Shown here piece after piece: positions 8,773 through 34,349 of a stretch of 64,000 bases of DNA. The translations under genes were made by a program, and so were the position numbers. This stretch comes from Halorubrum sodomense (GTDB lineage Archaea; Halobacteriota; Halobacteria; Halobacteriales; Haloferacaceae). Below the pieces are notes generated by a model. That model worked only from the letters and a program-made list of their open reading frames with translations. It was not told the origin of the DNA and did no database searches. Position 1 is the first letter of the stretch. Each line of letters begins with the position of its first letter. The stretch is from contig NZ_FOYN01000001.1 of assembly GCF_900111935.1 (NCBI RefSeq), positions 1 to 64,000 of the forward strand, given 5' to 3'.

Positions 8773-9163
8773 TCCAAAGCCCCAGCCACGACGGCTCGCG
8801 CGGCTCGGTGTCGTTCGAAAGGCGCTCCGCGCCTTTCGTGATGTCGTCAGAACGCGGAGCGTTCTGACTGCTAGCCAGAAATCTCCGATTTCTGGCGATG
8901 ACGAGACGCCTTCGGCGTCTCGAACCACGCTCCTCGGTCGCTCGGTCGCTGACGCTCCCTCGCTGCGGTGCTTCCGTCGCCGTGCTTCGCCCTCGCGGCT
9001 GCCCCTTTGAGTCCCGCCCCGCGCCGCTCCGCACAGCACCTCACCCCTCCCCAGCCTCGCGGCTCACGCTTCGCGGCTTCGCCGCTCGCGTTCGCCGCGT
9101 CCCTCGCACGCGCTGCTTCGCGGCCTCCGCTTCGCTCCGGCCGCTCGCAGGCGCGCGCCGGGG
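8773..9163 (+). repeat. Dispersed GC-rich repeat, copy 2
   Basis: Longest copy of the family. It opens with TCCAAAGCCCCAGCCACGAC, has CTCCTCGGTCGCTCG, GTGCTTCGCCCTCGCG, CCCCTTTGAGTCCCGCCCC and CCTCCCCAGCCTCGCGG, and ends with CTTCGCTCCGGCCGCTCGCAG. Near its 5' end about 110 bp carrying four hairpins (8816-8922) interrupt the pattern seen in copies 3 and 4. It fills the gap between the ferredoxin-like gene and hemB; no gene is credible inside it. Confidence 0.8.
8816..8922. repeat. Array of four perfect short hairpins
   Basis: Four consecutive perfect inverted repeats with 8-9 bp stems: CGAAAGGCG/CGCCTTTCG (8816-8838), GTCAGAACG/CGTTCTGAC (8846-8868), CCAGAAAT/ATTTCTGG (8875-8895), CGAGACGCC/GGCGTCTCG (8902-8922). 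Loops are CTCCG, CGGAG, CTCCG and TTC. The hairpins start 30, 29 and 27 bases apart. Stems differ in sequence while the loops are the same or reverse complements. Confidence 0.85.
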
Positions 9164-20745: not shown

Positions 20746-22524
20746 TCAGTTGTCGAACCGGGCCTGAACGAACGGCTGCGCGTTCTCGATGTCGCCGAGC
20801 CGCGAGTCCGACAGGAGCACCGCCTCGGTCTCTTCGACCGGCACGGAGAGGCCCATCTCCTTCGTCCGACCGTAGCGTCCCTTCGAGACGACGACGGCGT
20901 TGACGATGCCGAGCATGTCGAGTTCGCTGATGAGATCGGTGACGCGCCGCTGGGTCAGGACGTCGGCGTCGATCTCCTCGCAGAGCCGCTTGTAGATGTT
21001 GAACACCTCTCCGGTGTTGATGTTGTGGACGCCGTTCTTTTCGAGGAGGATGACGGCGAACAGGACGATCTTGCTCTGGGTGGGGAGGGTGCGGACGACC
21101 TCGACGACGCGGTCGAGTTCGATCTTGTCCTGGGCCTGTCGGACGTGTTTCTCCGCGACGATCTCGGCCTGCGAGCGCTCCGCGAGCTCGCCCGCGGTGC
21201 GGAGGAGGTCGAGCGCGCGTCGCGCGTCGCCGTGTTCCTGCGCGGCGAAGGCGGCGCAGAGCGGGATCACGTCGTCGGTGAGCGCGTCGGGTTTGAACGC
21301 GGTGTCGGCGCGGTGCTGGAGGATGTCGCGGAGCTGGTTCGCGTCGTACGGCGGGAAGACGATCTCCTCCTCGCCGAGGCTCGATTTGACGCGGGGGTCG
21401 AGGAAGTCGGTGAACTTCAGGTCGTTGGAGATCCCCATGATCGAGATCCGAGAGCGGTCGAGCTCGGAGTTCATCCGCGAGAGGTTATACAGCGTGTCGT
21501 CGCCGCTCTTCTCGACGAGCTTGTCGATCTCGTCGAGCATGATCACGACCACGCGCTCGTGGTAGTCGACCGCCTCGAAGAACGTGGAGTAAACGCGGTC
21601 GGTGGGCCACCCGGTCATCGGGACCTCCTCCATCTCGTCGGCGTCGTCTTCGAGGGTTTCGATCCGGTCGTCGAGCTCGTCGACAGAGTCGAACTCCGTG
21701 GCGGCGAGGGCGGCGGTGGCGTCGCCGATCGGATTTCCTTCGGCGTCCGTCGCGTCCTCGCGGAGGCCTTCGAGCCGCTCTAAGCGGTCGGCGATCACCG
21801 CCTGGTTCTCCTCGATGAACGTGTTCGCGAGCTGGGCGAGGACGCGGTACTGGGTGTCGGTCACCTCGCAGTTGATGTACTCGACCTCGCAGGGAACGTC
21901 GTACTTCTGGGAGGTGGACTCGAGCTCTTGGGAAACGAACTTCGCCGAGGCGGTCTTGCCGGTCCCCGTCTTCCCGTAGATGAGGATGTTCGACGGGGTC
22001 TCGCCGCGGAGCGCGGAGACGAGGATGGTCGCCATCCGGTTGATCTGGTCGTTGCGGTGCGGGAGCTCGTGCGGGGTGTACGAGGGACGAAGGACCTCCT
22101 TGTTCTCGAAGATCGGTTCACCGGAGAGGAGGTCGTCGAACAGGCCCTGACTGTCCTCGTCGTCGTCGAGGACGACGCCGTCGAAGTCGACGTCGGGCGA
22201 CGACCGGTCGCGACCGCCGTTGTCGAGCCCCGCCGTTTCGGGTCGAGCGTCGCTCGAGGAGTCCGATTGGTCCAGATTGTCGTCTGATTGGTTCAGGTCG
22301 GTGCCCGATTGACCGAGTTCCGATCCCGCGTCGGTGTTGCGGTCACCGAGGTCGCGGTCGGATCCCGTCGGATCGTCGGGGTGGAAATCTTCGAGGTCAG
22401 GGTCGTCGGTGTCGGAGTTACCGACACCGGAGTCGCCTGGGTCGGAGTCGCTGCTGTGATCCGTCTCGTCGTCGTCCGGATCGGTGCCGCCGTCGGCCCG
22501 CGGTGTGTGATCTCCTTCGTCCAT
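20746..22524 (-). CDS. orc1: Orc1/Cdc6 replication initiator
   Basis: A 592-residue AAA+ initiator that binds origin boxes and loads the MCM helicase. An acidic, low-complexity N-terminal region (about 130 residues, with repeated DLNQSD/NLDQSD) is followed by Walker A GKTGTGKT (184-191), Walker B VVIMLDEIDKL, sensor GISNDLKF, and a C-terminal winged helix (LTQRRVTDLISELDMLGIV). The adjacent origin strongly suggests it is the cognate Orc1-1. An origin box begins only four bases upstream of the ATG, so binding there would cover the promoter or leader: autoregulation is likely. Confidence 0.96.
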   Translation of the reverse strand: MDEGDHTPRADGGTDPDDDETDHSSDSDPGDSGVGNSDTDDPDLEDFHPDDPTGSDRDLGDRNTDAGSELGQSGTDLNQSDDNLDQSDSSSDARPETAGLDNGGRDRSSPDVDFDGVVLDDDEDSQGLFDDLLSGEPIFENKEVLRPSYTPHELPHRNDQINRMATILVSALRGETPSNILIYGKTGTGKTASAKFVSQELESTSQKYDVPCEVEYINCEVTDTQYRVLAQLANTFIEENQAVIADRLERLEGLREDATDAEGNPIGDATAALAATEFDSVDELDDRIETLEDDADEMEEVPMTGWPTDRVYSTFFEAVDYHERVVVIMLDEIDKLVEKSGDDTLYNLSRMNSELDRSRISIMGISNDLKFTDFLDPRVKSSLGEEEIVFPPYDANQLRDILQHRADTAFKPDALTDDVIPLCAAFAAQEHGDARRALDLLRTAGELAERSQAEIVAEKHVRQAQDKIELDRVVEVVRTLPTQSKIVLFAVILLEKNGVHNINTGEVFNIYKRLCEEIDADVLTQRRVTDLISELDMLGIVNAVVVSKGRYGRTKEMGLSVPVEETEAVLLSDSRLGDIENAQPFVQARFDN

Positions 22525-22551: not shown

Positions 22552-22990
22552 GGTCGAGCAGGACGCTTGAGAGGCCGTCTCCGGTCGGAAATACGCATTC
22601 GCGGTCGGATTCGAGACCGACCACGTCCAGTTGATACAGTCGAACCAGATGAAGAGACGGTACAAAAGTGTTCCTCTCTGGAGTTGAAACGTCCCTCTCT
22701 CACGAGATGTCGAGGCAGTCGAGAGGCGGTTCGGGTCTACCGAGGGGGCGGTCGAACGGGTCGAGAGGGCGTAGAACTAGAAACGACGAGCGACGAGATC
22801 CCGTTCCTCTTTGACTAAGATCACTTGATATAGCGACTTTTAACCCCTGACACGGCTGATTCGAAGATCTTGCGATCGCGTCGTGACCGTTGGTATCCCG
22901 ACTGCGAGGTCCGCCGATCGGTTTCGACTCCCCGGCTCGGGCCCACAGTCTCCGAGTCCGGCGAGGCGGTTCGATCGGGTACACCCCCAC

Positions 22991-23012
22991 ACCCCTTCGT
23001 TTCGGGTGGAAC
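22991..23012 (+). promoter_or_regulatory. Origin recognition box, left of unwinding element
   Basis: Reads ACCCCTTCGTTTCGGGTGGA plus AC. It is preceded by an extra C-rich run (ACACCCCCAC), the C/G string typical of haloarchaeal boxes. It is the inverted partner of 23215-23236, with one mismatch in 22. Confidence 0.88.
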
Positions 23013-23042
23013 GGCAGACGGGTGGGTGGGGGTCCTGAGCTG

Positions 23043-23162
23043 TGAGTTGTATACCGGTGGTTTTATTACAAATACAATATAACAGTACCCTCGACAAACC
23101 CTCTAATATTATATTTGTTGTGGCATAATTGTTTTATTACTAATCTTTCCTTGAATTATCTG
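23043..23162. other. AT-rich duplex unwinding element
   Basis: About 120 bp of strongly AT-rich DNA between the inverted boxes. It has a direct repeat, TTTTATTACAAAT (23061-23073) and TTTTATTACTAAT (23132-23144), and between them an imperfect inverted repeat (ACAAATACAATATAAC against TAATATTATATTTGT). It is the probable melting site. Confidence 0.85.
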
Positions 23163-23214
23163 GGGCGCCTAGATCCACCGCGAATACCTATCGACCACCC
23201 CGTCGCTCTTCGCG

Positions 23215-23236
23215 GTTCCACTCGAAACGAAGGGGT
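23215..23236 (-). promoter_or_regulatory. Origin recognition box, right of unwinding element
   Basis: On the minus strand it reads ACCCCTTCGTTTCGAGTGGA plus AC, followed outward by a G-run (GGGGTGGGGGGAGGG on the plus strand). Its orientation is opposite to the left box, as expected for two Orc1 complexes loading on the AT-rich centre. Confidence 0.88.
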
Positions 23237-23366
23237 GGGGGGAGGGCTCCCGATCGGCTTTCGGGAGATCGACGGCCGATCCCTCCTGGCTTCCTGACAA
23301 CGTCTGACTACTGCGCCTCCGTCCATCGAAGTGGGTCCAACGAATATCACGGTCGACGCCGATAGT

Positions 23367-23382
23367 TTTACCAATCGGTAAA
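23367..23382. promoter_or_regulatory. TetR-type operator upstream of the CoA-transferase gene
   Basis: TTTACCAATCGGTAAA, a 6+4+6 palindrome overlapping the TATA position for a transcript starting near 23401. The same pattern stands at 27373-27388, beside the TetR gene, and at 32797-32812. Confidence 0.75.
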
Positions 23383-23400
23383 CAAACCGTACACACACCT

Positions 23401-23439
23401 ATGAGACGATTCCGTATCTCGGACGAGGTGGCTCGATGA
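23401..23439 (+). CDS. Possible 12-residue leader peptide
   Basis: ATG at 23401 opens MRRFRISDEVAR and ends in TGA at 23437-23439, overlapping the ATG of the CoA-transferase gene (23436) as ATGA. The TATA-like GTTTTACC lies about 27-35 bases upstream, so a leaderless transcript could begin at this codon. That would make the following gene dependent on coupled translation. It could also be chance. Confidence 0.35.
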   Translation: MRRFRISDEVAR

Positions 23440-24857
23440 CCGATACCGGCGACACCGACACTGGCGACACCAACACTAGCGACACCGGAGCCGACGACAC
23501 TGGGGCTAACGACACTGGCGACACCGGAGCCGACGACACTGGGGCCGACGGTCCCACCGGCGGCGGACGGATCCTCGACGGCGTCACCGTTCTCGACCTC
23601 TCGACGTTCGTCACCGGTGGCTTCTGTTCGGCGATGCTCGCGAATCAGGGGGCGGAGGTCGTCAAGATCGAACAGCCCGGCTACGGCGACGCCGTCCGCC
23701 ACTCCGGCCCGCCGTTCATCAAGGGGGAGTCGCCGTACTACTGGACCCTGAGCTACGGGAAGAAGAGCCTCGAACTCGACCTGAAGAACGACGACGCGAA
23801 GGAGGCGCTGTACGAACTCGTCGAGGAGGCGGACATCTTCATCCAGAACTTCCGCCCGGGCACCGCAGAGCGACTCGACGTCGACTACGACACGCTCACC
23901 GAGCACAACGAGGACCTGATCTACCTCGCGATCTCGGCGTTCGGACAGACCGGACCGTGGCGCGAGCGGTCCGGGTACGACCTCCTCATCCAGGGGATGA
24001 GCGGGATCATGAGCGTCACCGGCGAGGCGGACCGCCAGCCGGTGAAGGTCGGCCTCCCGATGACGGACCTGATCACGGCGATGTGGGCGGCCTTCGGCGC
24101 GACGACGGCCCTCTACCGCAGAGAGCGGACCGGCGAGGGCGAGTACATCGACCTCGGGATGCTCGAGGCCACCCTCCCGTGGCTCACGAAGCAGGCCGGG
24201 ATGGTGTTCGCCGGCGAGGAGACGAAGCGGATGGGGACGAAAGACCCCGTCCTCGCGCCGTACCAGACGTTCGAGACGAAAGACGGGTTCATCAACATCT
24301 GTATCCTCAACGAGAAGCTCTGGGGCGAGCTCTGCGAGGCGCTCGACCGGCCGGACCTCCCCGAGGACGACCGCTTCGAGCAGAACGCGGACCGCGTGGA
24401 ACACCTCGACGAGCTCGAAGCCGAGATCGAGGCCACCCTCGCGGACAAGACGACCGACGAGTGGATCGAGGTCATCGCCGAGGACGCGGGCGTCCCCGCC
24501 GGCCCGGTGTACAGCGTCGAGGAGGCGCTGAACAGTCCCCAGATCGAGGCCCGCGGCACCATCACCGAGATCGAACACCCCGAACTCGGCGACGTGCCCG
24601 TGATCGAACACCCGCTCAAGTTCCGCAACGCCGAGAGCGGCTTCGAACTCCCCCCGCCGCTTTTAGGCGAACACAACCGCGAGGTGTTCCGCGAACGCGG
24701 CTACTCCGAGGCCGAGATCGACCGCCTCGCGGAGCTGGGCGTGTTCGGCGACGACGCGGACGACGGCGAGACTCCCGACGACGCAGACAGCGGCGAGACT
24801 CCCGACGACGCGGACAGCGGCGAGACTCCCGACGACGCGGACGAGCATGACGACTGA
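23436..24857 (+). CDS. CaiB/BaiF-family CoA transferase
   Basis: A class III CoA transferase of 473 residues that moves CoA between a thioester and a free carboxylate. The core begins at about residue 44 (GRILDGVTVLDLSTFVTGGF). Asp211 in GLPMTDL is the probable catalytic aspartate. Both ends carry tandem repeats absent from the family: Thr/Asp/Gly-rich units in residues 1-40, and three DDADSGETP-like nonapeptides at the C-terminus (27-bp DNA repeats). The gene overlaps the thiolase-like gene by 11 bp and lies behind a TetR-type operator. It probably activates the substrate acid of the pathway; substrate unknown. Confidence 0.9.
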   Translation: MTDTGDTDTGDTNTSDTGADDTGANDTGDTGADDTGADGPTGGGRILDGVTVLDLSTFVTGGFCSAMLANQGAEVVKIEQPGYGDAVRHSGPPFIKGESPYYWTLSYGKKSLELDLKNDDAKEALYELVEEADIFIQNFRPGTAERLDVDYDTLTEHNEDLIYLAISAFGQTGPWRERSGYDLLIQGMSGIMSVTGEADRQPVKVGLPMTDLITAMWAAFGATTALYRRERTGEGEYIDLGMLEATLPWLTKQAGMVFAGEETKRMGTKDPVLAPYQTFETKDGFINICILNEKLWGELCEALDRPDLPEDDRFEQNADRVEHLDELEAEIEATLADKTTDEWIEVIAEDAGVPAGPVYSVEEALNSPQIEARGTITEIEHPELGDVPVIEHPLKFRNAESGFELPPPLLGEHNREVFRERGYSEAEIDRLAELGVFGDDADDGETPDDADSGETPDDADSGETPDDADEHDD

Positions 24858-26028
24858 GGTCCGCGTCGGCGGCGTCGGCATGACGCCCTTCGAGAGCGAC
24901 TCGGGGCGTTCGCTCACCAACCTGGCGGCAACGGCCGCCGAGCGCGCCCTCGACGACGCCGCGGTCGACCTCAACGACGTCGACGCGCTCCACTTCGGCA
25001 ACGCGCTCGCCGAGGCGCTCGACGAGAGCGCGGGGCTCGCGAACGCGCTCGCGGCCGCCCTCGGCCTCGACGGCGCGTCCGCGGACCGGATCGAGAACAC
25101 GAGCGCGACCGGCGCGAGCGCCTTCCACCGGGGCGTCGACCGCATTGAAAGGGGCGAGGCCGACGCCGCGCTCGTCGTCGGCGCCGAGAAGATGTCCGCG
25201 GGCGACACGCGGAGCGTCACCGAAGCGATCAGCCGCCTCGTCCACCGCCGCGAGTACGCGCAGGGGATCACGCTCCCCTCCTTCGGCGGGCTCGCCGCCG
25301 GCGCCTACCTGGACCGCCACGACGCGCCCCGCGAGGCGCTCGCCGCGGTCGCCGCGAAGAACCACGCCAACGCGGTCGACAACCCCGTCGCGCAGTTCCG
25401 CAAGTCGATCGACGTCGAGGACGCCCTCGACTCCCCGGTCGTCGCCGCACCGCTCCGGCTGTACGACTGCTGTCCGATGTCGGACGGCGCCGCCGCGGTC
25501 GTCCTGACCCGAGCGGGCGACGCCGACGCTGACGCCGCCACCGCCGACACCGGTCACCCGCCCGCGCCCCGCGTCGCCGGCGTCGCAAGCGCGACGGGCA
25601 CCCACGCCGTCGCCGAGCGGCCGGACCCGCTCTCGATCGACTCCGTCCGGACCGCCGGCGAGCGCGTCTTCGACCGCGCCGGGATCCGTCCCGACGACGT
25701 CGACGTCGCCTGTATCCACGACGCGTTCACCGTCCTCGAACTGATCGAACTGGAGGAGCTGGGCTTCTACGACGCCGGCACCGCGTGGGAGGCGACGCTC
25801 GACGGCGACACCGCCCTCGACGGCGACCTCCCTGTCAACCCCGGCGGCGGGCTCAAGGCCCGCGGCCATCCGCTCGGGGCGACGGGCCTCTCGCAGATCG
25901 TCGAACTCGTGTGGCAGCTGCGGGGCGACCTCCCCGCGGGCCGCCGTGTCGACGGCGCGGAGACGGCGTTCGCGATCAACGTCGCCGGGTTCGGGAACAA
26001 CAGCGTCTGTACGGTGTTGCGCGCGTGA
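24847..26028 (+). CDS. Thiolase-fold protein lacking the catalytic cysteine
   Basis: A 393-residue protein of the SCP2/Ltp branch of the thiolase superfamily. The nucleophile position is Ser86 (ENTSATGAS instead of NxCSTG), the SCP2 motif HDCF is HDAF (291-294), and the C-terminal cysteine motif is NVAGFGNNS. His341 in GGGLKARGHPLGATG is kept. Loss of the cysteines excludes ordinary thiolysis. Ltp2-type proteins with the same loss are retro-aldolases working with a DUF35 partner, and a DUF35 gene follows here with a GTGA overlap. A retro-aldol step on a CoA thioester is therefore the best inference. Confidence 0.85.
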   Translation: MTTEVRVGGVGMTPFESDSGRSLTNLAATAAERALDDAAVDLNDVDALHFGNALAEALDESAGLANALAAALGLDGASADRIENTSATGASAFHRGVDRIERGEADAALVVGAEKMSAGDTRSVTEAISRLVHRREYAQGITLPSFGGLAAGAYLDRHDAPREALAAVAAKNHANAVDNPVAQFRKSIDVEDALDSPVVAAPLRLYDCCPMSDGAAAVVLTRAGDADADAATADTGHPPAPRVAGVASATGTHAVAERPDPLSIDSVRTAGERVFDRAGIRPDDVDVACIHDAFTVLELIELEELGFYDAGTAWEATLDGDTALDGDLPVNPGGGLKARGHPLGATGLSQIVELVWQLRGDLPAGRRVDGAETAFAINVAGFGNNSVCTVLRA

Positions 26029-26465
26029 CGGATCCGGACAGCGAAGTCCCGGAGAACGGCGCCCCCGCGGACCGCGACCTCCCCGCGGACGACCTCCCCG
26101 CGGACGACCTCCTCGCGGACCGGGAGCTCCCCGCGGACCGCGCCTTCGTCTGCGACGACTGCGGTCGCCGCTGGTACTACGACCGGCGCCGCTGCCCGGA
26201 CTGCGGCCGCTCGTCGGCGGACGCCTCGACGGTTCGACTCGAAACCGGGGCGGTCATGGCGACGACAACCGTCGAGACCACGCCGCCCGACGTCCGCGCG
26301 CCGAACCACCTCGCGCTGGCCCGGTTCGACGAGGTTCAGCTGATCGCACAGGCCGCCGACGGCGACCTGGCCCCCGGGGATACCGTTCGGTTCGACGGTT
26401 CCCACCGACTTCGCGACGGACGCGAGCGAACCGATCCGCGGCTCGTCGCGGTCGACGACTCCTGA
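26025..26465 (+). CDS. DUF35-type zinc-ribbon/OB-fold protein
   Basis: A 146-residue protein with a GTG start in a GTGA overlap with the thiolase-like gene. After a repeat-rich acidic segment (DLPADDLPADDLLADRELPAD) comes a rubredoxin-like zinc ribbon (Cys43, 46, 57, 60: CDDCG...CPDCG). An OB-fold follows, with conserved APNHLALARFDEVQLIAQ and GDTVRFDG. DUF35 proteins are obligate partners of thiolase-fold enzymes that act on acyl-CoA (HMG-CoA synthase/thiolase complex, Ltp2-ChsH2). The tight coupling supports a heteromeric complex with the preceding gene product. Confidence 0.87.
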   Translation: MTDPDSEVPENGAPADRDLPADDLPADDLLADRELPADRAFVCDDCGRRWYYDRRRCPDCGRSSADASTVRLETGAVMATTTVETTPPDVRAPNHLALARFDEVQLIAQAADGDLAPGDTVRFDGSHRLRDGRERTDPRLVAVDDS

Positions 26466-26565
26466 CGCCGGGTCAGACTTCGGCGGGAAACGCCGGGTCA
26501 GACTTCGGCGGGAAACGCCGGGTCAGACTTCGACGGGAAACGCCGGGTCAGACTTCGACGGGAAA
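26466..26565. repeat. Four tandem copies of a 25-bp unit
   Basis: Units start at 26466, 26491, 26516 and 26541. Each opens ACGCCGGGTCAGACTTCG and ends GGGAA, with a G/A difference at position 19 between the first two and last two units. The array begins at the stop codon of the DUF35 gene and lies between the convergent DUF35 and TetR genes. There are no spacers, so it is not a CRISPR. The unit contains GCCGGG and is G/C-skewed. Confidence 0.9.
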
Positions 26566-26592
26566 CGCCGGCGGAAAAAGGCGACCCCTCGG

Positions 26593-27324
26593 CTACTCCG
26601 TCCGTTCCAGCGACTCGAAGATGAACTCGTCCATCGCCTTCCGGGCCTCCTCGGGCGCGTCCTCGTGACCGAGCGAGATCCGGCGCCCGCGCGCGGCGTG
26701 GATGACGTCGGTCACCAGCTGGCCCATCCGCTCCGCGTCGACGTCGCGGAAGACGCCCTCCTCGATCCCCTCCTCGACGACCTCGACGATGCTGCCGCGG
26801 ATGCGCTCGTAGTGCTCGTTGAACACCTCGCGGTGGTCGCCGTCGTTTTGCGCCTGCGTGTACAGCTCGTGGTACACCTTCATCCGGTCCCAGTGGCTAA
26901 ACTCCTCGAACTCGGGGCCGAACAGGCACTGGTCGACGCGGGCGCGGAGCTCGGTCCGCGGGTCCGCGTCCCCGTCGACGACCACGCTCCCCTCGTACTG
27001 GTCGATGATGTGTTCGAGGAACGAGGACATCAGGTCGTACTTCCCGTCGAAGTGATAGTGGATCACCTGCCGCGTGAGGTCCATCTCCTCCCCGATGTCG
27101 CGCATCCGGAGGTCCTTGTACCCGTGCTTGCTCAGCGCGCGGAACGTCGCCTCCATGATGACCTCCTTCGTGTCCTTCGAGGACACCGTCTCCCCGCCGG
27201 ACTCGTCGGCGGGGTCCTCTGCGGGAGGGCTCCCCTCGGAGGGCCGCTCCCGGGAGGCGTCGTCGCCGCCGTCGGTCGGGGACTCGACGGATTCGCCCGC
27301 CGATCCGCCCTGTGATTCGCTCAT
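26593..27324 (-). CDS. TetR/AcrR-family transcriptional regulator
   Basis: A 243-residue regulator. After about 48 acidic, low-complexity residues comes the TetR DNA-binding domain (54-98) with MRDIGEEMDLTRQVIHYHFDGKYDL, whose tail is the classic helix 3-4 signature. The remainder is a helical ligand-binding domain. The ATG at 27324 is preferred over GTG at 27330. It is divergent from the amidohydrolase gene. The palindrome at 27373-27388 between them is the likely operator and recurs upstream of the CoA-transferase and BNR/TatD genes. It is probably an acyl-CoA- or substrate-responsive repressor of the whole block. Confidence 0.9.
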   Translation of the reverse strand: MSESQGGSAGESVESPTDGGDDASRERPSEGSPPAEDPADESGGETVSSKDTKEVIMEATFRALSKHGYKDLRMRDIGEEMDLTRQVIHYHFDGKYDLMSSFLEHIIDQYEGSVVVDGDADPRTELRARVDQCLFGPEFEEFSHWDRMKVYHELYTQAQNDGDHREVFNEHYERIRGSIVEVVEEGIEEGVFRDVDAERMGQLVTDVIHAARGRRISLGHEDAPEEARKAMDEFIFESLERTE

Positions 27325-27372
27325 ACCCACACTCTACGGGTGAGGTACATAATACGATTGGCTCTCACTGCG

Positions 27373-27388
27373 TTTACCGTCCGGTAAA
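27373..27388. promoter_or_regulatory. TetR-type operator, regulator/amidohydrolase intergenic
   Basis: TTTACCGTCCGGTAAA, a palindrome with 7-bp arms around TC. A degenerate second site, TTAACCTCTTGGTCAA (27392-27407), follows and overlaps the TATA-like TTTTAAC of the amidohydrolase promoter, 25-32 bases before its ATG. Confidence 0.8.
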
Positions 27389-27422
27389 GTTTTAACCTCT
27401 TGGTCAAACCCTATTATCGAAC

Positions 27423-28778
27423 ATGACACAGACGATCGTTCGAAACGGGACCGTGGTCTCGCTCGACCCGGACGTGGGGGAGTTCGAGGAGGCCGACGTC
27501 CTGATCGAGGACGGCGAAATCGTCGAGGTAGGCACCGGACTTGCGGCGTCGAACGCGGAGGAGATCGACGCTTCCGGGAAGATCGTCGTCCCCGGCTTCG
27601 TCGACTCGCACATCCACCTCGCGCAGACGCAGGTACGCGGTATCGCCGGCGACTGGTCGCTCATGGGCGAGTACTTCGACCATATGCTCGGTAACATCAC
27701 CGGGCTCTATCAGCCCGAGGACATGTACCTCGGCGGTCTCTACGGCGCCTTCGAGAAGCTCTACACCGGGACGACGACGGCGCTCGACTGGTCGTACCCC
27801 AACACGCTCGAACACGGCGAACGCGCCGTCGACGCGCTGAAGGACACCGGACTGCGCGCGGTGTACACCTACGGTCCGCCGGGCGACGACGCGGCGAAGT
27901 GGTGGTACGAGAGCGACGTGGGCCTCCCCGAGGAGAACATCCGTAGCCTCCACGAGGAGAAGATCCGCGACGACGACCTGCTCACCCTCGCGCTCGGGCT
28001 CCGCGGCCCCGACTTCTGCGTCCCCGAGACCGCTCGCGCGGACCTGGAGCTGGCGCGCGACCTCGGCGTCCTCTCGACGATCCACATGGGCGCCGCGCTG
28101 TGGCCGTCCTCCGAGTACGGCGACGACTACCAGGGCTTCGGCGCCATCGAGGACATGCTCGGCCCCGACGTCAACGTCGCCCACGGGAACCACTTCACCC
28201 AGGAGGACATCGACCACGCCGTCGAGCAGGGGGTCTCCTTCTCGTCGACGCCGGAGGTCGAGATGCAGATGGGCCACGGCATCCCCGTCACCGGAAAGGT
28301 GCTCGAGGCCGGCGGCCGCCCGGCGTGGGGCGTCGACGTCTGCTCGAACGTCAGCGGCGACATGGGGAGCCAGATGCGCATCGGGATGCAGCTCCAGCGC
28401 ATGTTCGACAACCAGGCGGTGTTAGAGGGCGACGAGGAGGTCACCGAGGTGAGCATCTCCGCGCGCGATACCCTCGAAATGGCCACCATCGAGGGCGCGA
28501 AGGCGCTCGGCCTCGACGACGAGATCGGGACGATCACGCCCGGCAAGCGCGCCGACCTCGTCCTGTTCGACGCCGACGACTTCATGACCGCCCCCAGCCA
28601 CAACCCGGTCCAGACCGTCGTGTTCCAGACCGATCCCTCGCACATCGACACCGTCCTCGTCGACGGCGAGGTCGTCAAGCGCGACGGCGAGCTGACGAAC
28701 CCGAAGGTCGACGAGGAGTTCGACCGGTTCGTCGCCTCCGGCGAGCGCCTCCTCGACGAGGCCGGGATCGACCTGTAA
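27423..28778 (+). CDS. Amidohydrolase (deaminase/chlorohydrolase-like)
   Basis: A 451-residue metal-dependent hydrolase of the cyclic amidohydrolase superfamily, nearest in layout to TrzN/AtzA/SsnA and cytosine or guanine deaminases. Metal ligands: His63 and His65 in GFVDSHIHLAQT, a histidine in STIHMG, one in VAHGNH, and Asp in AWGVDVCSN. The C-terminus closes the beta sandwich (GTITPGKRADLVLFD). The mononuclear set predicts deamination or hydrolytic removal of a ring substituent; the substrate is unknown. The promoter has a TATA about 30 bases before the ATG (leaderless) and the TetR operator just upstream. The FAH gene follows 61 bp on. Confidence 0.92.
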   Translation: MTQTIVRNGTVVSLDPDVGEFEEADVLIEDGEIVEVGTGLAASNAEEIDASGKIVVPGFVDSHIHLAQTQVRGIAGDWSLMGEYFDHMLGNITGLYQPEDMYLGGLYGAFEKLYTGTTTALDWSYPNTLEHGERAVDALKDTGLRAVYTYGPPGDDAAKWWYESDVGLPEENIRSLHEEKIRDDDLLTLALGLRGPDFCVPETARADLELARDLGVLSTIHMGAALWPSSEYGDDYQGFGAIEDMLGPDVNVAHGNHFTQEDIDHAVEQGVSFSSTPEVEMQMGHGIPVTGKVLEAGGRPAWGVDVCSNVSGDMGSQMRIGMQLQRMFDNQAVLEGDEEVTEVSISARDTLEMATIEGAKALGLDDEIGTITPGKRADLVLFDADDFMTAPSHNPVQTVVFQTDPSHIDTVLVDGEVVKRDGELTNPKVDEEFDRFVASGERLLDEAGIDL

Positions 28779-28839
28779 CACCGGCCGACGCGCCCGCTTC
28801 ACCGACCGAACTAACCTCTCGACTCACTACTCACCTCAC

Positions 28840-29724
28840 ATGCGAATCGGACAATACCGAACGACGGACGAACAGACACCGTGGCCCGGCGTCGCGACCG
28901 ACGACGGCGTCGTCGACCTCGCCGAGGCCGGCGCCGCCGCCGGCGTCCACGTGCCCGACCGAACCAGCGACCTCCTCGCCGACTGGGAGTGGCGCCGCAA
29001 GGCCGACCTCGCGGTCGAACACGCCGCGGAGACGGGCGTCGGCGTCCGCGACCCTACCGACCTCGAGCGCGCCGCCCCCGTCGACGACCCGCGGAAGGTC
29101 GTCTGCGTCGGACTGAACTACCGCGACCACGCCGAGGAGGGCGACAACGAGATCCCGGACGAGCCCGTCCTCTTCTCGAAGTTCCCCACCTCGGTCGTCG
29201 GCCCAGACGACGCGGTCCGATGGGACCCCGAGTACACCGAGAAGGTGGACTACGAGGCCGAGCTCGTCGCCGTCATCGGCGAGCGCGCCCGCCGCGTCGA
29301 CCCCGAGGACGCCCTCGACCACGTCGCCGGCTTCACCGTCGGCAACGACGTCTCCGCGCGCGACCTCCAGCACGGCGACGGCCAGTGGGTCCGCGGGAAG
29401 AGCCTCGACACCTTCGCCCCGACCGGCCCCGACCTCGTCACGACCGACGAGATCGACGACCCGCACGACCTCGAGATATTCGCCGAGGTCAACGGCGAAC
29501 GGCTTCAGGAGTCGTCGACCGAGAACCTGATCTTCGGCGTCGACGAGCTGATAGCCTTCTGTAGCCGGGCGTTCACGCTCGAACCCGGCGACCTGGTGTT
29601 CACCGGCACGCCCCCCGGCGTCGGCGTCTACCGCGACCCCCCGGTGCTGCTCGGCGACGGCGATTCGGTCACTATCGGCGTCGAGGGCGTCGGCGAACTC
29701 ACGAACGAGTTCGAGACGGAGTAG
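28840..29724 (+). CDS. Fumarylacetoacetate hydrolase (FAH)-family protein
   Basis: A 294-residue FAH-superfamily enzyme. The N-terminal about 70 residues are a small domain. The catalytic domain begins DPRKVVCVGLNYRDHAEE, carries the acidic metal ligands in KVDYEAELVAVIG and NDVSARDLQ, and ends with FTGTPPGVG. Family members cleave C-C bonds of acylpyruvates or decarboxylate oxo-acids (catechol meta-cleavage, ureidoglycolate-like reactions). With the amidohydrolase and CoA enzymes it suggests breakdown of a ring-derived dicarbonyl. It probably shares the amidohydrolase transcript. Confidence 0.92.
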   Translation: MRIGQYRTTDEQTPWPGVATDDGVVDLAEAGAAAGVHVPDRTSDLLADWEWRRKADLAVEHAAETGVGVRDPTDLERAAPVDDPRKVVCVGLNYRDHAEEGDNEIPDEPVLFSKFPTSVVGPDDAVRWDPEYTEKVDYEAELVAVIGERARRVDPEDALDHVAGFTVGNDVSARDLQHGDGQWVRGKSLDTFAPTGPDLVTTDEIDDPHDLEIFAEVNGERLQESSTENLIFGVDELIAFCSRAFTLEPGDLVFTGTPPGVGVYRDPPVLLGDGDSVTIGVEGVGELTNEFETE

Positions 29725-29950
29725 GACCGCCCTGTTGTCGAATATTTATAAGAGATTACCAGCGTCGCGACTTCCGTTGAAATACTACACTCTAGACGCA
29801 TTCTCGCCGGAAACGGTTGGTCACCAAACGCTGATTTTTGATCCAGTGCGGGAGTACGTGTAGTACGTCGTGAGTGGGATCATTTATAAACCAGAGTGCG
29901 GTATTGCTGTCGGCTGTTTATAAATGACTAACGCTGCTGAGATGGCGGTC

Positions 29951-30211
29951 TCCAAAGCCCCAGTCGCGACGGCTCGCGCGCCTTGCTGCGCTCCTCAGTC
30001 GCTCGTTTCACTCGCTCCTTGCGGTGCTTGCTGCGGCGTGCTTCGCCCTCGCGACTGTCCCTTTGAGTCCCGGCCCGCACCGCTCAGTACCGCAGCCTCA
30101 CGCCTCCCCAGCCTCGCGGTTCGCGCTCTCCGAGCGCTCACCGCGTCCCTCGCGGGCTGGCTCGCGGCCTCCGCTTCGCTCCGGCCGCTCGCAGGCGCGC
30201 CACCGCCGGCT
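29951..30211 (+). repeat. Dispersed GC-rich repeat, copy 3
   Basis: Opens TCCAAAGCCCCAGTCGCGAC, has CTCCTCAGTCGCTCGTTTC, GTGCTTCGCCCTCGCGAC, CCCTTTGAGTCCCGGCCCG, CCTCACGCCTCCCCAGCCTC and closes CTTCGCTCCGGCCGCTCGCAG. About 260 bp. The same order of blocks is found in copies 2 and 4. It lies just before the MNT/HEPN pair. Confidence 0.82.
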
Positions 30212-30432
30212 ATTTCTAAGTGTTTGTCGCCGCCGATAGCGTCTTTTTAAATATCGAATCGCTGCTACCGATCTGCGATACCCACTCCCGTTCTCGCTCG
30301 TCGCTGTGTTCGTACAGACCGGAACGACTCGCAATATACCACTTTTTGAGGATAATATGCCTGAAAAATCGGACTCTAACCGTGGCAGTCCGTCCTAATC
30401 GACTCATTTCATCGGCAGAGTTTTCAGACCGT

Positions 30433-30445
30433 TTCTTAATAAGAA
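30433..30445. promoter_or_regulatory. Palindrome at the MNT/HEPN promoter
   Basis: TTCTTAATAAGAA, perfect 6+1+6, ending four bases before the ATG at 30450. Its half TAATAAGAA repeats inside the gene start (30455-30463), 18 bp away. It is a likely operator for the winged-helix domain of the encoded protein. Confidence 0.55.
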
Positions 30446-30449
30446 TAGT

Positions 30450-31115
30450 ATGCCTAATAAGAAAGAGACAATCTCGATCGAACTGCGATATCCGTTTCCG
30501 GAGGATCGGGTGTTTCGATACCAAGCGATGGAGGACGTTCTTGCGGTCCTCATCGATCAGCCGTACGCGGCGTACTCGATGAGCGAACTCGCGAGTCTCA
30601 CGGGAGCGAATCAGGGGACGATCTCGAAGGCGGTGAAGCTGCTTTCCGAGCTTGATGTCGTCGAAACGGCACAGGACGGTCGGACCCGGCAGGTCCGGAT
30701 CAACCGCGAGCGGCTCACGAAACCGGATCCGATTCTCTCGATCCCGCAGAGCGAGTTTCACCACCCGGTCCGGGCCTTCCTCCAACGAGCTCAAGAGGAG
30801 CTGGACGAGGTAGTCGGTGTCGTCCTATTCGGCAGCGTCGCTCGGGGGGAAGCGGATAGGACCAGCGACATCGACCTACTGGTGGTCGTCGACGGGGACC
30901 GAACGGCCGCTCGTCGGACCATCCAGTCGATCGTCAGCGACCTCGAGGACCGACGGTTCGAAGGGAACCGCTACACCTACCAGCCGCTCGTCGAATCGAC
31001 GGACAGCGTCAGCCGAATCGGCGACGAGCTCCGTCCCCAGTTCGACGACGGCATCACGTTGGTCGATTCCGACCGCCTCTCAGAGCTCCGAACTGAGGTG
31101 TACAGCGATGAATGA
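30450..31115 (+). CDS. MNT-type nucleotidyltransferase antitoxin with N-terminal winged helix
   Basis: A 221-residue protein. Residues about 28-90 form a winged helix (YSMSELASLTGANQGTISKAVKLL). Residues about 105-215 form a minimal nucleotidyltransferase domain with FGSVARGEADRTSDIDLLV: GS at 128-129 and the two Asp ligands of SDID (139-142). In MNT-HEPN systems the MNT protein AMPylates and silences the HEPN toxin; here it overlaps the HEPN gene by 8 bp. The DNA-binding domain suggests self-repression through the palindrome at 30433-30445. Codon use and AT-rich flanks suggest a mobile defence cassette. Confidence 0.85.
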   Translation: MPNKKETISIELRYPFPEDRVFRYQAMEDVLAVLIDQPYAAYSMSELASLTGANQGTISKAVKLLSELDVVETAQDGRTRQVRINRERLTKPDPILSIPQSEFHHPVRAFLQRAQEELDEVVGVVLFGSVARGEADRTSDIDLLVVVDGDRTAARRTIQSIVSDLEDRRFEGNRYTYQPLVESTDSVSRIGDELRPQFDDGITLVDSDRLSELRTEVYSDE

Positions 31116-31596
31116 CGATATCCGGGATCGATTGGCGGAGGCCGAGCGGAGCTTCGAGGGCAGTCCCGGAACGATCGAAGAGGGTCTGGACGTCGACGAC
31201 GCGGAGCTGGTCCAACTTCGCCGTGCCTGCCGGCTGTTGGAGGTCGGATCGAACCTCCTCGACCGAGGGTACTACACGGTCGTAATCGAGTCGGCGTTCG
31301 TCGCCATCGAGCGCACGATTCAGTTCCGGCTGATCCACGACGGAGCGATGTCGCCCTCGGAGGTCATCAGCAGCCACCGGCGGCTCTACCAACGCGGGGC
31401 CGAGATCGGTCTCTACGACGACGCCTTCGGGGACGACCTCGCCGAGCTGTGGAACCGGAACCGAACGGAGACCTACTACAGGCTTGGAATAGCAACGAAG
31501 GAACAGGCCGAGGCAATGTCCGGGCTGGCCGGGGGTATCCACCGACACCTCGTCGACGTGACTCGGGTGTCACACGAGTGTCTCTGTCGGGGGTAG
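31108..31596 (+). CDS. HEPN-domain protein, probable toxin of the MNT/HEPN pair
   Basis: A 162-residue helical protein with the HEPN shape (LRRACRLLEVGSNLLDRGYYTVVIESAFVAIERTIQFRL). The RX4HxY signature of RNase-active HEPN toxins is replaced by RNRTETYY (117-124): Arg117 is present, Thr122 stands where His is expected, and Tyr124 occupies the AMPylation position. The RNase activity may thus be altered or lost while the modification target is kept. The ATG at 31108 overlaps the antitoxin stop. It is followed by about 160 bp without a gene. Confidence 0.8.
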   Translation: MNDDIRDRLAEAERSFEGSPGTIEEGLDVDDAELVQLRRACRLLEVGSNLLDRGYYTVVIESAFVAIERTIQFRLIHDGAMSPSEVISSHRRLYQRGAEIGLYDDAFGDDLAELWNRNRTETYYRLGIATKEQAEAMSGLAGGIHRHLVDVTRVSHECLCRG

Positions 31597-31756
31597 CTCC
31601 CTCGAACCGCAGTCCTCGTCGCTCTCTTCGTTCGCGACCCGCTCGCACGGTCGTCTCACGGCCGGCTCCCGGGCACACACGGAGGCGTGTCGCGCCTCTT
31701 AAAGACGACTCAGAGCCGCCGGCGATGCCACCATACCGTGAACTCATTTAAATAGC

Positions 31757-32764
31757 CTACTCCGCCAGCCCGAACACGTCTCGCGGGTTCTCGTACACGA
31801 CGGTCCGGATGTCGTCGACGTCGATGCCGTACCGGTACAGCTCGAACATCGCGCGCTTCACCGCGTACGGGTCCGTGCGCAGCACGTTCGCGGTGTCGGT
31901 GTCGATCATGACCCGCTCGGAGCCGTACTCGTCGATGGCGTTCGCCACGTCGGCGGCGTCGACGCCGACCAGCCACGAGTGGCCGATGGTGTAGCTCAGG
32001 TAGCAGTCCGTCTCGGTCATCAGGTACTCCGTGTTGTTCGCGTCCGCGTGCGAGGCGACCACGCGCTCCTCGTCGAGGCCGGCGTCCGCGGCCGCCTCGA
32101 CGTCCCGCTTTACCGCCTCCAGGGCCGGGTTCTCGCCGTCGAGGACCGGCTCGGTACCGAGCCCGGTGTTCTTCTCGTACCCCGGCGTCACGCCGAGGTC
32201 GTCGCGGTACTCCCGCTTCGCGTCGGGCGTCGTGTTCGGCGTGTGGAGCAGGACGGGGAGGTCGTGGTCGGCGGCCAGCTCCATCTGCGCCCCGACGACC
32301 GCCTGCTGCTCGTCGACGTCCCAGCGCTCGACGTGCTGGCTCGGGACGACGCCGGTCTCTCCGACTGCGACGACCTCGTCGAGCGCGCAGTAGTCGTCCA
32401 TCGCGGCCAGCAGCTCGTCGGGGTTCTCGATCCGGACGCCGGTGTGGACGCCGAGCCCCAGCTTCGCCTCGAAGAAGTGGTTGCGCTCGATCGCCCGCCG
32501 GCGGTTGATCGCGTCGTCCCAGAGGAAGCGGATGTCGCTCGCCTCCACGGGCTTGTAGGGGGTCCAGTGGTACCCCGACGACACCATCACCATCGACCGG
32601 CAGCCCGAGAGGGCGTACCGCTCGCGGTCCTCCCACGAGAGCGTGTGCGCGTGGTTGTGCGGGTCGATCCACGGAATGTTCAGCAGTTCGGTCGGGAGGT
32701 CCGGGTCCGAGCCGTCGAGGAACGCGGCGTCCGTCGGGCGAACGGTGGCGTGTGGCGCGGTCAT
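31757..32764 (-). CDS. TatD-like metal-dependent hydrolase
   Basis: A 335-residue amidohydrolase-fold protein of the TatD/phosphotriesterase-like group. His36 and His38 are in IDPHNHAHTL, Glu in VVAVGETGVV, histidines in LPVLLHTPNT and VVASHADANN, and Asp in VMIDTDTANV. It could hydrolyse a lactone, an amide or a phosphoester; a DNase role is less likely given the pathway neighbours. It is divergent from the BNR gene across a TetR-type operator and probably belongs to the same regulon. The preceding gap 31597-31756 holds no gene. Confidence 0.87.
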   Translation of the reverse strand: MTAPHATVRPTDAAFLDGSDPDLPTELLNIPWIDPHNHAHTLSWEDRERYALSGCRSMVMVSSGYHWTPYKPVEASDIRFLWDDAINRRRAIERNHFFEAKLGLGVHTGVRIENPDELLAAMDDYCALDEVVAVGETGVVPSQHVERWDVDEQQAVVGAQMELAADHDLPVLLHTPNTTPDAKREYRDDLGVTPGYEKNTGLGTEPVLDGENPALEAVKRDVEAAADAGLDEERVVASHADANNTEYLMTETDCYLSYTIGHSWLVGVDAADVANAIDEYGSERVMIDTDTANVLRTDPYAVKRAMFELYRYGIDVDDIRTVVYENPRDVFGLAE

Positions 32765-32796
32765 GCCTCCACCGTCGTCCCCCGGCCACTTAGCGT

Positions 32797-32812
32797 TTTA
32801 CAGATTGGTAAA
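32797..32812. promoter_or_regulatory. TetR-type operator, TatD/BNR intergenic
   Basis: TTTACAGATTGGTAAA, matching TTTACCnnnnGGTAAA at all but one arm position. It lies between divergent promoters and directly abuts the TATA-like ACTTTATT (32813-32820) about 28 bases before the ATG at 32844. Confidence 0.72.
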
Positions 32813-32843
32813 ACTTTATTATGCGTCCGACTGACTTCCGAAT

Positions 32844-33905
32844 ATGACACTGTTGATCGGGACAGACTCGGGGCTGTACCGAACGGACGACGTCCCCTTC
32901 GAGCGCGACGAGCTCGACCCCGTCCTCGACTGCGGGGTCGTCACCGCGGTGAAGTCGTGGGACCACACCGAGGGCGTGTTCGTCGCCTCCTCGACGGGCG
33001 CGTACCGCTCGCTCGACGGCGGGGAGACGTGGACCGACCTGGAGGTCCCCCTCGGCGACCGCTTCTGGCACGCCGGACAGAGCGAGGTGTGGTCGATCCT
33101 CGCGACCGCGGACGGCGCGCTGTACGCCGGCACGAACGACCCCTACGTCTTCCGCTCGGTCGACGGCGGCGAGACGTGGACCGAGCAGAAGGGGTTCCGC
33201 GAGCTCCCCTCCCGCGGCCACTGGGAGTCGCCGATCGACCCGCACTACGCCCGGCTCCGCGCGCTGGAGGCGGTCCCCGGCCGCCCGGAGCACCTGATCG
33301 CCGGGGTCGAAGCGGGCGGGATCCACGTCAGCCGCGACGGCGGCCGCACGTGGTCCGACCACCGGGACGCCATCGTCGACGACGTCCACCAGGTTCTCCC
33401 CATCTCGGAGGACGTCTGGCTGGCGGCGACCGGCTACCTCGACCACGACTTAGAGAACCTCGGCCTCGGCCACGCGGTCGGCGAGGGCGGGCTGTGGCGG
33501 ACGACCGACGCGGGCGAGTCGTGGGACCGGCTCGACGTCGGCAGCGACTTCTCGTACATCCGCCGGGTGTTCGTCCACGACGGTCGGGTGATCTTCTGCG
33601 GCGGCGAGGAGGCGCCCCCGGCGTGGGTGAACGACGACCACGAGGTCGCGCTGTTCGAGTCGACGAACTTCGGCCGCGACTTCGAGCGCGTCGACTTCCC
33701 CGGCGAGCCCCACGAGATAATCGAGACGTGGGCGGTCCACGACGGCGACGTGGTCTGCGGCTCCGGCCTCTTCGACGTGCCCGACGAGCGCGACGACGTG
33801 GCGGGCCGGATCATGCGGCGTCTCGACAGCGAGGGCGACGAGGGGCCGACCTACGAGACGGTCGGTCGCGTCGACGCGAACGTCAGCCGGATCGAGGTGG
33901 TCTGA
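32844..33905 (+). CDS. BNR/sortilin-like beta-propeller protein
   Basis: A 353-residue predicted beta-propeller with at least four Asp-box (BNR) repeats: SLDGGETW, SVDGGETW, SRDGGRTW and TTDAGESW, spaced by 50-100 residues. No signal peptide is visible (MTLLIGTDSGLYRTDD), so it is cytosolic. Asp-box propellers occur in sialidases, photosystem assembly factors and lyase-like enzymes; none is clearly matched. It is the first gene of an operon with the DoxX-like gene, under the third TetR-type operator. It may be a binding or isomerase protein for the pathway substrate. Confidence 0.85.
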   Translation: MTLLIGTDSGLYRTDDVPFERDELDPVLDCGVVTAVKSWDHTEGVFVASSTGAYRSLDGGETWTDLEVPLGDRFWHAGQSEVWSILATADGALYAGTNDPYVFRSVDGGETWTEQKGFRELPSRGHWESPIDPHYARLRALEAVPGRPEHLIAGVEAGGIHVSRDGGRTWSDHRDAIVDDVHQVLPISEDVWLAATGYLDHDLENLGLGHAVGEGGLWRTTDAGESWDRLDVGSDFSYIRRVFVHDGRVIFCGGEEAPPAWVNDDHEVALFESTNFGRDFERVDFPGEPHEIIETWAVHDGDVVCGSGLFDVPDERDDVAGRIMRRLDSEGDEGPTYETVGRVDANVSRIEVV

Positions 33906-34349
33906 ATGGCGGACGAAGCGGAATCGCCGGCCGGACCCGACGACGCCGACCGCGACGCGCCGTCGCTGCTCGGCCGCTCGCTGTACGGCGGCGTCCTCGC
34001 GTACATGGCCGTCGACGGCTTCAAGAACAACGACAAGCGGGTCTCGGTCGCCGAGGAGAAGGGCGTCCCGATGCCGGACGTCCTCGTCCCGTTCGTCACC
34101 GGGATGCTGCTGGTCGCCAACCTCGGGATCGTCCTCTGGCGCCTCCCGCGGGCGGCCGCGGGCGCGCTCGTCGTCTTCTTCCTCGGGACGACGCCCGCCA
34201 TCCACGACTTCTGGACGATGGAGGGGAAAGAGCGCCACGGCAACAAGATCAACTTCCTGAAGAACCTCGCGCTTCTCGGCGGGGCTATCGTCTTCCTCGA
34301 CGCCGCGAGCGAGAGCGACGAGGGAGTCCGAGAGGGCGACGGGGAGTAG
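33906..34349 (+). CDS. DoxX-like membrane protein
   Basis: A 147-residue membrane protein directly after the BNR gene (TGA then ATG with no gap). An acidic cytosolic N-terminus is followed by about four hydrophobic segments, with conserved YGGVLAYMAVDGFKN, VPFVTGMLLVANLG, VVFFLGTTPAIHDFW and INFLKNLALLGGAIVF. This layout is that of the DoxX family, whose members serve as quinone-linked or accessory subunits. It may donate electrons or anchor the pathway to the membrane; this is inference. Confidence 0.8.
   Translation: MADEAESPAGPDDADRDAPSLLGRSLYGGVLAYMAVDGFKNNDKRVSVAEEKGVPMPDVLVPFVTGMLLVANLGIVLWRLPRAAAGALVVFFLGTTPAIHDFWTMEGKERHGNKINFLKNLALLGGAIVFLDAASESDEGVREGDGE

Follow-up and report, generated by a model that had tools for sequence, protein, structure and literature searches.

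We analysed a 64,000-nucleotide (nt) stretch of the Halorubrum sodomense genome (contig NZ_FOYN01000001.1, positions 1 to 64,000; hereafter the window), focusing on a block of genes around a TetR family regulator that recurs, together with a palindromic operator, in many other haloarchaea. Family searches recovered all of the genes that an earlier inspection of the letters, here called the sequence-only reading, had named, each at its given position. The block consists of the following genes.

23436-24857, plus strand: CaiB/BaiF family III coenzyme A (CoA)-transferase (CoA_transf_3; PF02515, E=2.3e-124)
24847-26028, plus strand: thiolase-fold protein with Ser86, His291 and His341 (PF00108/PF22691 and motif columns)
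26025-26465, plus strand: DUF35 partner subunit with a zinc ribbon (C43/C46/C57/C60) and an OB fold (family profile)
26593-27330, minus strand: TetR family regulator that presumably represses the block (PF00440, E=3.6e-9; present in 36 of 37 related loci)
27423-28778, plus strand: amidohydrolase of the PRK08204 / AtzA-MTA deaminase superfamily, without the HxxE Glu (PRK08204 subfamily above cut-off)
28840-29724, plus strand: fumarylacetoacetate hydrolase (FAH) family enzyme (PF01557, E=4.9e-73)
31757-32764, minus strand: TatD-like TIM-barrel metal hydrolase (PF01026, E=6.6e-15; fold model)
32844-33905, plus strand: BNR/sortilin-type beta-propeller protein (family match; fold model)
33906-34349, plus strand: DoxX-like membrane protein (PF07681, E=4.2e-6)

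Conservation of the block was assessed by scanning one genome per species for the amidohydrolase, which returned 40 loci (labelled L; genomes are labelled G), of which the 38 haloarchaeal ones were used. L106 and L107, weak bacterial matches, were dropped from the conservation counts, and L103 (a 48% amidohydrolase, probably from the same genome as L109) was dropped from the gene counts, which cover 37 loci with a close amidohydrolase; identity cut-offs for gene presence were our own choice, and some loci are cut by contig ends. TetR was present in 36 of these loci, FAH and DoxX in 32 each, TatD and BNR in 29 each, CaiB in 23, DUF35 in 14 and thiolase in 13, with CaiB found in 13/13 thiolase-bearing block loci. 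Three loci (L076, L081 and L101) carried only TetR, amidohydrolase and DoxX among the tested genes. The genera concerned include Halorubrum, Halobellus, Natrinema, Natrialba, Natronococcus, Natronorubrum, Halovenus, Halosimplex, Halobaculum, Saliphagus, Halobacterium and others. In the same-genus locus L039, thiolase, amidohydrolase and TatD all appear frameshifted, reflecting either decay or sequencing errors.

Co-occurrence was tested over 146 genomes of the order, ignoring relatedness; this set overlaps the locus set (L098, for example, is G060), and the two are not independent. A close amidohydrolase was found in 12 of the 146 genomes, and both BNR (12 genomes) and TatD (14 genomes) share 11 genomes with it (Fisher p 4e-13 to 7e-16 for co-occurrence among the three). 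Thiolase orthologues, present in 16 genomes, share 6 with the amidohydrolase (p=4e-4) and occur without it in the other 10; conversely, thiolase was not seen in 24 of the 37 block loci, a few of which are truncated by contig ends. G033 and G060, both congeners, carry the block without the thiolase/DUF35 pair, and no close thiolase orthologue was found elsewhere in either genome. In Natrinema salsiterrestre (L083, around position 8944), a truncated DUF35 stub was seen by eye after CaiB with thiolase gone, an arrangement suggesting a deletion in which the pair was lost secondarily. Together, these comparisons show TetR, amidohydrolase, FAH, TatD-like, BNR and DoxX genes travelling together with conserved predicted operators, and by the same gene counts the thiolase/DUF35 pair is an optional addition to the block, in which CaiB is frequent. 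The sequence-only reading thus stands in its observations and in its view of one block with common operators, kept as a unit in other haloarchaea, and is not supported where it treated the set as indivisible. Separate distribution across genomes, which it had named as evidence against itself, applies in part and to the thiolase-amidohydrolase pair only, whose association is still above chance.

The operator pattern proposed in that reading was recovered as TTTACC-N4-GGTAAA at three intergenic sites, accompanied by a degenerate copy.

23367-23382: operator 1, 0 mismatches, upstream of caiB
27373-27388: operator 2, 0 mismatches, between the TetR and amidohydrolase genes, 50 nt before the amidohydrolase ATG
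27392-27407: degenerate operator copy, 2 mismatches, 19 nt beyond operator 2, overlapping a TTTTAA TATA-like element
32797-32812: operator 3, 1 mismatch, between the TatD-like and BNR genes

Allowing up to one mismatch, the pattern occurs at 7 sites in the 3.03-megabase genome, 3 of them in the block, and the same pattern read backwards gave 0 sites in the whole genome at this threshold. In 34 of the 38 loci, the 80 nt before the amidohydrolase contain an operator, starting at -49 to -51 (shuffled mean 0.005); an operator also stands between TatD and BNR in 28 of 29 BNR-bearing loci, and CaiB is preceded by one in 18 of 23 CaiB-bearing related loci. Downstream of the operator at the window amidohydrolase, TTTTAA stands about 30 nt before the ATG, overlaid by the degenerate copy, and a sequence resembling that copy was seen by eye in most of the 38 amidohydrolase loci. 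Such a layout would fit a repressor that blocks TBP and TFB binding at a leaderless promoter. A palindromic operator at the regulator and at target promoters, conserved across genomes, is what a TetR-type regulon should display, and binding by TetR is predicted on this basis.

Operators were also found outside the block. In the window genome, G104, G115 and G004, an exact and a one-mismatch copy lie together between an aldehyde dehydrogenase gene and that of a helix-turn-helix (HTH) protein.

L005 7864-10459 (own genome, C7:98839-98965): genes for an aryl-aldehyde dehydrogenase and a DUF7347/DUF7351 HTH protein, divergently oriented, two operators between them

This dehydrogenase most resembles 4-hydroxybenzaldehyde and benzaldehyde dehydrogenases, and operator sites adjoin it in G135 and G118 as well. 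Among the upstream regions of 20 further orthologues, 8 contained an operator at up to one mismatch and 12 did not (shuffled mean 0.006). G117 and G088 both have a close amidohydrolase, and only G117 has an operator before the dehydrogenase. Pirin genes likewise adjoin operator sites, one of which is kept in the same-genus genomes G000, G004 and G115; in 2 genomes an operator precedes a katG-like gene, and a superoxide-dismutase-like gene adjoins the dehydrogenase/HTH pair (both genes named by eye). Because operators stand at aldehyde dehydrogenase, pirin and katG-like genes, the chief signal for TetR may be an aromatic or reactive carbonyl compound. As a separate observation, an approximately 50%-identical amidohydrolase paralogue with a twin-arginine translocation (Tat)-like signal (by eye) lies at L108 11940-13550 and L109 12003-13634, about 7 kilobases (kb) or less from the aldehyde dehydrogenase gene and, in L108, also near a TetR orthologue.

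These sites underlie the main rival to a catabolic block, a detoxification or stress regulon that would not mainly serve growth on a carbon source. In this view TetR would respond to an aldehyde, a quinone or a similar electrophile, which would be removed or repaired by the hydrolases together with aldehyde dehydrogenase, pirin and DoxX. The benzaldehyde-type dehydrogenase behind its operators, the retained pirin site and the katG-like and superoxide-dismutase-like genes all argue for it. However, the dehydrogenase was not found at E<=1e-170 in the block-bearing genomes G033 and G060, most of the further orthologues (12/20) lack the operator, and a lone one-mismatch operator is expected about once per genome by chance, as estimated from base composition. 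CaiB, FAH and thiolase are, moreover, catabolic families. We regard this explanation as somewhat unlikely.

Residues of the two metal hydrolases were then compared. The amidohydrolase residues H63, H65, H221, H254 and D305 are invariant in 37/37 sequences, and in the TatD-like protein H36, H38, E136, H174, H239 and D290 are invariant in 25 sequences; from their aligned positions, we take both sets to be metal ligands, a role that is likely for the TatD-like set. The Glu of the HxxE motif of COG0402 aminohydrolases (deaminases) is replaced by Ala224 in 36 of the 37 amidohydrolase sequences and falls in a gap in the remaining one. Because this acid is replaced by Ala, plain deamination, which the sequence-only reading had assigned to the amidohydrolase, is doubtful. 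The TatD-like fold model (predicted local distance difference test, pLDDT, 83) had 3guw as its best match (E=2.3e-10). Fold matches of the BNR model (pLDDT 77) were to propellers too general to indicate function, and neither the FAH sequence comparison nor the BNR fold comparison pointed to a substrate.

In the thiolase-fold protein, Ser86 (NTSATG) occupies the position of the thiolase nucleophilic Cys, while His291 (HDAF) and His341 (GHP) are kept. The protein is therefore cysteine-less at the nucleophile position, as first described, with four other cysteines elsewhere (208, 209, 289 and 388). Ser86 is found in 33/34 orthologue rows and each His in 34/34, and all three residues are found in 13/13 paralogue rows (alignment and tree were made without the frameshifted L039 and 8 of 20 paralogue loci). 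The paralogue rows, which include a thiolase of Haloferax mediterranei plasmid pHME505, form a separate clade with support 100/100, and the window thiolase falls outside it. At 1e-60 a thiolase match occurs in 143 of the 146 genomes, 126 of which have the distant paralogue only, at <54% identity. Among Protein Data Bank (PDB) sequences, 4yzo (244.7 bits) and 7yvy (238.6) rank first and Ltp2 6ok1 (103.4) far lower, the nucleophile position being Ser in 4yzo and Cys in 7yvy; 4yzo and 7yvy are presumably both archaeal, 7yvy being a Pyrococcus thiolase. The window DUF35 protein taken alone is a weak match (OB_ChsH2_C at E=0.0038, which misses the cut-off; Pfam gave nothing at 0.001). Across the family, at E<=0.1, OB_ChsH2_C was found in 12/12 aligned members (best 4.9e-10) and zf-ChsH2 in 11/12, and the family profile has as its top PDB match 6esq_E, 'Pfam DUF35' (E=6e-8), with ChsH2 (6ok1_B) ranking lower.

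The sequence-only reading had taken this pair for a retro-aldolase, which would split a 3-hydroxyacyl-CoA into acyl-CoA and an aldehyde to be oxidised by the co-regulated dehydrogenase. Loss of the nucleophilic Cys, a DUF35 partner like those of the Ltp2 and Sal aldolases, and the co-regulated aryl-aldehyde dehydrogenase are consistent with this. In H. mediterranei, however, a review (PMC7137286) describes the alpha subunits of BktB and PhaA as Ser-His-His beta-ketothiolases for which the OB domain of the beta subunit is indispensable, and the window pair has these same features, Ser with two catalytic His and a co-encoded OB-fold/DUF35 subunit. Because haloarchaeal thiolase paralogues share Ser-His-His, the missing Cys does not discriminate an aldolase, and we rejected it as proof of one. 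According to PMC12329534, steroid aldolases use a catalytic Tyr in YDHF (Ltp2) or YDCY (Sal); the corresponding motif here is HDAF, with His291 in 34/34 orthologue rows (Ltp2 was compared by motif and PDB bits; its second catalytic acid is Tyr344). The DUF35 protein also carries no hydratase domain such as is reported for Shy, and the dehydrogenase is present in many genomes without a window-type thiolase. Retro-aldol cleavage is accordingly improbable, and the aldolase-type thiolase claim of the sequence-only reading should be dropped. By its residues and distribution, the window protein looks like an optional, ordinary thiolase of salt-loving archaea rather than an aldolase, although the pair could still have changed its reaction.

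Genomic settings of thiolase orthologues outside the block were examined at 16 loci, mostly with about 10 kb on each side, with 20 paralogue loci as controls. L126 and L127 (apparent duplicates of L044 and L043), L040 (a 6.8-kb contig) and the plasmid hits H5 and H8 were left out. NCS2 nucleobase permeases were found at 6 of the 16 loci, hydantoinase/dihydropyrimidinase-like genes at 4, a urease cluster at 1, CocE hydrolases at 5, MoeA at 3, FAD subunits of molybdenum hydroxylases at 3 and CaiB at 9; none of these neighbour types occurred at the 20 control loci except for one CaiB. The suggestion of a nitrogen-containing substrate in the sequence-only reading is thereby supported indirectly, through the neighbours of some thiolase orthologues. 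On a Halosolutus plasmid, annotation gives a run of FAH, IclR, CoA transferase, thiolase, a small protein in the DUF35 position and TatD, continuing with a sialidase-family protein, a xylose-isomerase-like protein, a short-chain dehydrogenase/reductase (SDR), and DoxX, beyond which lies an ABC transporter; the annotation of this 25-kb stretch includes no amidohydrolase. The SDR suits a beta-oxidation-like route.

We tentatively propose, at slightly below even chances, that these genes form a single haloarchaeal unit under TetR control, catabolic or serving detoxification, that would act as follows. TetR, bound to operators covering the promoters, would release them once an intermediate accumulates. 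The two metal hydrolases may act on a cyclic carbonyl compound, probably one that contains nitrogen, by opening or trimming it; FAH would split a C-C bond of a 1,3-dicarbonyl-type acid, and CaiB would transfer CoA to the acid that FAH produces. The thiolase/DUF35 pair would then thiolyse a 3-oxoacyl-CoA, Ser86 standing in for the nucleophilic Cys as its counterpart does in haloarchaeal BktB/PhaA, and at loci without the pair another thiolase, or none, would take this step. The co-regulated aryl-aldehyde dehydrogenase, encoded elsewhere, may clear an aldehyde side product or feed in the acid. A bolder version, which we consider doubtful, is an undescribed haloarchaeal nitrogen-ring pathway in which the deaminase-fold hydrolase lacking its acid and the TatD-fold hydrolase open the ring, and CaiB with the Ser-type thiolase/DUF35 pair finishes the breakdown through CoA thioesters. 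The cassette would be portable and common to nucleobase-permease, hydantoinase and urease islands, with a TetR regulon that includes the aryl-aldehyde dehydrogenase and pirin.

Several observations weigh against this proposal. The nitrogen-heterocycle theme is drawn from other islands and not from the block itself, and of the 16 orthologue loci 5 are of a TRAP-TAXI type (four with an IclR regulator) and 5 of neither kind. Reference proteins for the neighbour counts were taken from the orthologue loci, so that every locus supplying one scores as a match to its own protein. In one island thiolase the Ser is replaced by Asn, and the association of thiolase with amidohydrolase across genomes (6 shared, p=4e-4) is weaker than that among the core genes. 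Clustering of neighbours at the 38 loci, made with a crude gene caller, showing families in at least four loci and judging them by eye, gave no permease, urease or dehydrogenase family that would fix the pathway; recurrent families beyond the block were flanks of Halorubrum-type loci or occurred in four loci only. Pirin, katG-like and superoxide-dismutase-like genes, apparently controlled by the operator or close to it, point rather to a role in stress defence.

The block begins about 0.9 kb from an orc1/cdc6-type gene, in agreement with the origin-side location given in the sequence-only reading.

20746-22524, minus strand: orc1/cdc6-type open reading frame (ORF), named by eye
22985-23242: AT-rich DNA enclosed by a 31-nt inverted repeat (90% complementary), between the orc1/cdc6-type gene and the block
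30450-31596: HTH-nucleotidyltransferase ORF with a small overlapping ORF (31108-31596), between FAH and TatD

An inverted repeat around AT-rich DNA beside orc1/cdc6 presumably marks an origin of the haloarchaeal kind. The pHME505 thiolase of H. mediterranei and its overlapping partner gene (L121) likewise lie near an orc1/cdc6 gene. The orc1 and GTPase flanks are also conserved in Halorubrum and in L074 (labelled Halobellus), and part of the gene order is therefore plain synteny; that the whole is a chance neighbourhood of unrelated operons beside an origin is nonetheless highly improbable, and is refuted for the core genes, as the same set with its operators recurs where those flanks are absent, in other genera and families, and co-occurs far beyond expectation by the Fisher tests above, relatedness uncorrected.

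Other features of the block are minor. The nucleotidyltransferase/small-ORF pair, overlooked in the sequence-only reading, also lies inside the block in L038, L068 and L071; Pfam gives nothing for the small partner at E<=0.01, and the two are possibly a toxin-antitoxin or defence pair. The DUF35 gene has a GTG start at 26025 that overlaps the thiolase stop, and a tandem repeat (25 nt x 4.3) lies downstream of it at 26465-26571. CaiB contains a 27-nt x 3.5 tandem repeat at its C-terminal end (24749-24842) and 15/39-nt repeat units at its N-terminal end (23439-23550).

Overall, the block is a real, conserved and uncharacterised haloarchaeal regulon built from known families. No publication that we recognised as describing this gene set emerged from a literature search, and what is new lies in how the genes are combined, in the operator and in the active site of the amidohydrolase. 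The regulon is experimentally tractable, given an operator sequence, a target list and presence/absence pairs within one genus. The thiolase corrects an easy misreading, since a missing Cys in haloarchaea does not alone signal an aldolase. If the ring-degradation reading is true, it would fill a gap in archaeal nitrogen and carbon cycling.

Among known systems, the AtzA (4v1x) and MTA/adenosine deaminase (4f0r) structures share with the amidohydrolase a superfamily match and aligned metal ligands but differ in that the HxxE Glu is Ala224 in the window protein; because the matches reach only about 100-123 bits, an AtzA-type substrate is not transferable. The acetoacetyl-CoA thiolase complex 6esq provides the closest solved DUF35 and a close thiolase (176 bits), whereas no HMG-CoA synthase was found among the block genes; its thiolase, in a complex we take to be archaeal, presumably uses Cys. 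The Ltp2-ChsH2 and Sal-Shy aldolases likewise combine a thiolase fold with a DUF35 partner and have key thiolase residues replaced or repurposed (PMC12329534). Unlike them, the window pair lacks the YDHF/YDCY Tyr and its DUF35 is unfused to a hydratase, and the window thiolase scores 103 bits to Ltp2 (6ok1) versus 245 to 4yzo. The pHME505 thiolase of H. mediterranei is 45% identical to the window thiolase and is followed by an overlapping hypothetical gene; judging by gene order, the two are presumably bktB-alpha/beta. The H. mediterranei BktB/PhaA enzymes share with the window pair Ser-His-His and a thiolase alpha with an OB-fold/DUF35 beta subunit in overlapping genes, but this type has HDMF and QTS[SA]SG where the window protein has HDAF and NTSATG, and forms a separate clade; the window pair, in turn, is linked to CaiB and hydrolases.

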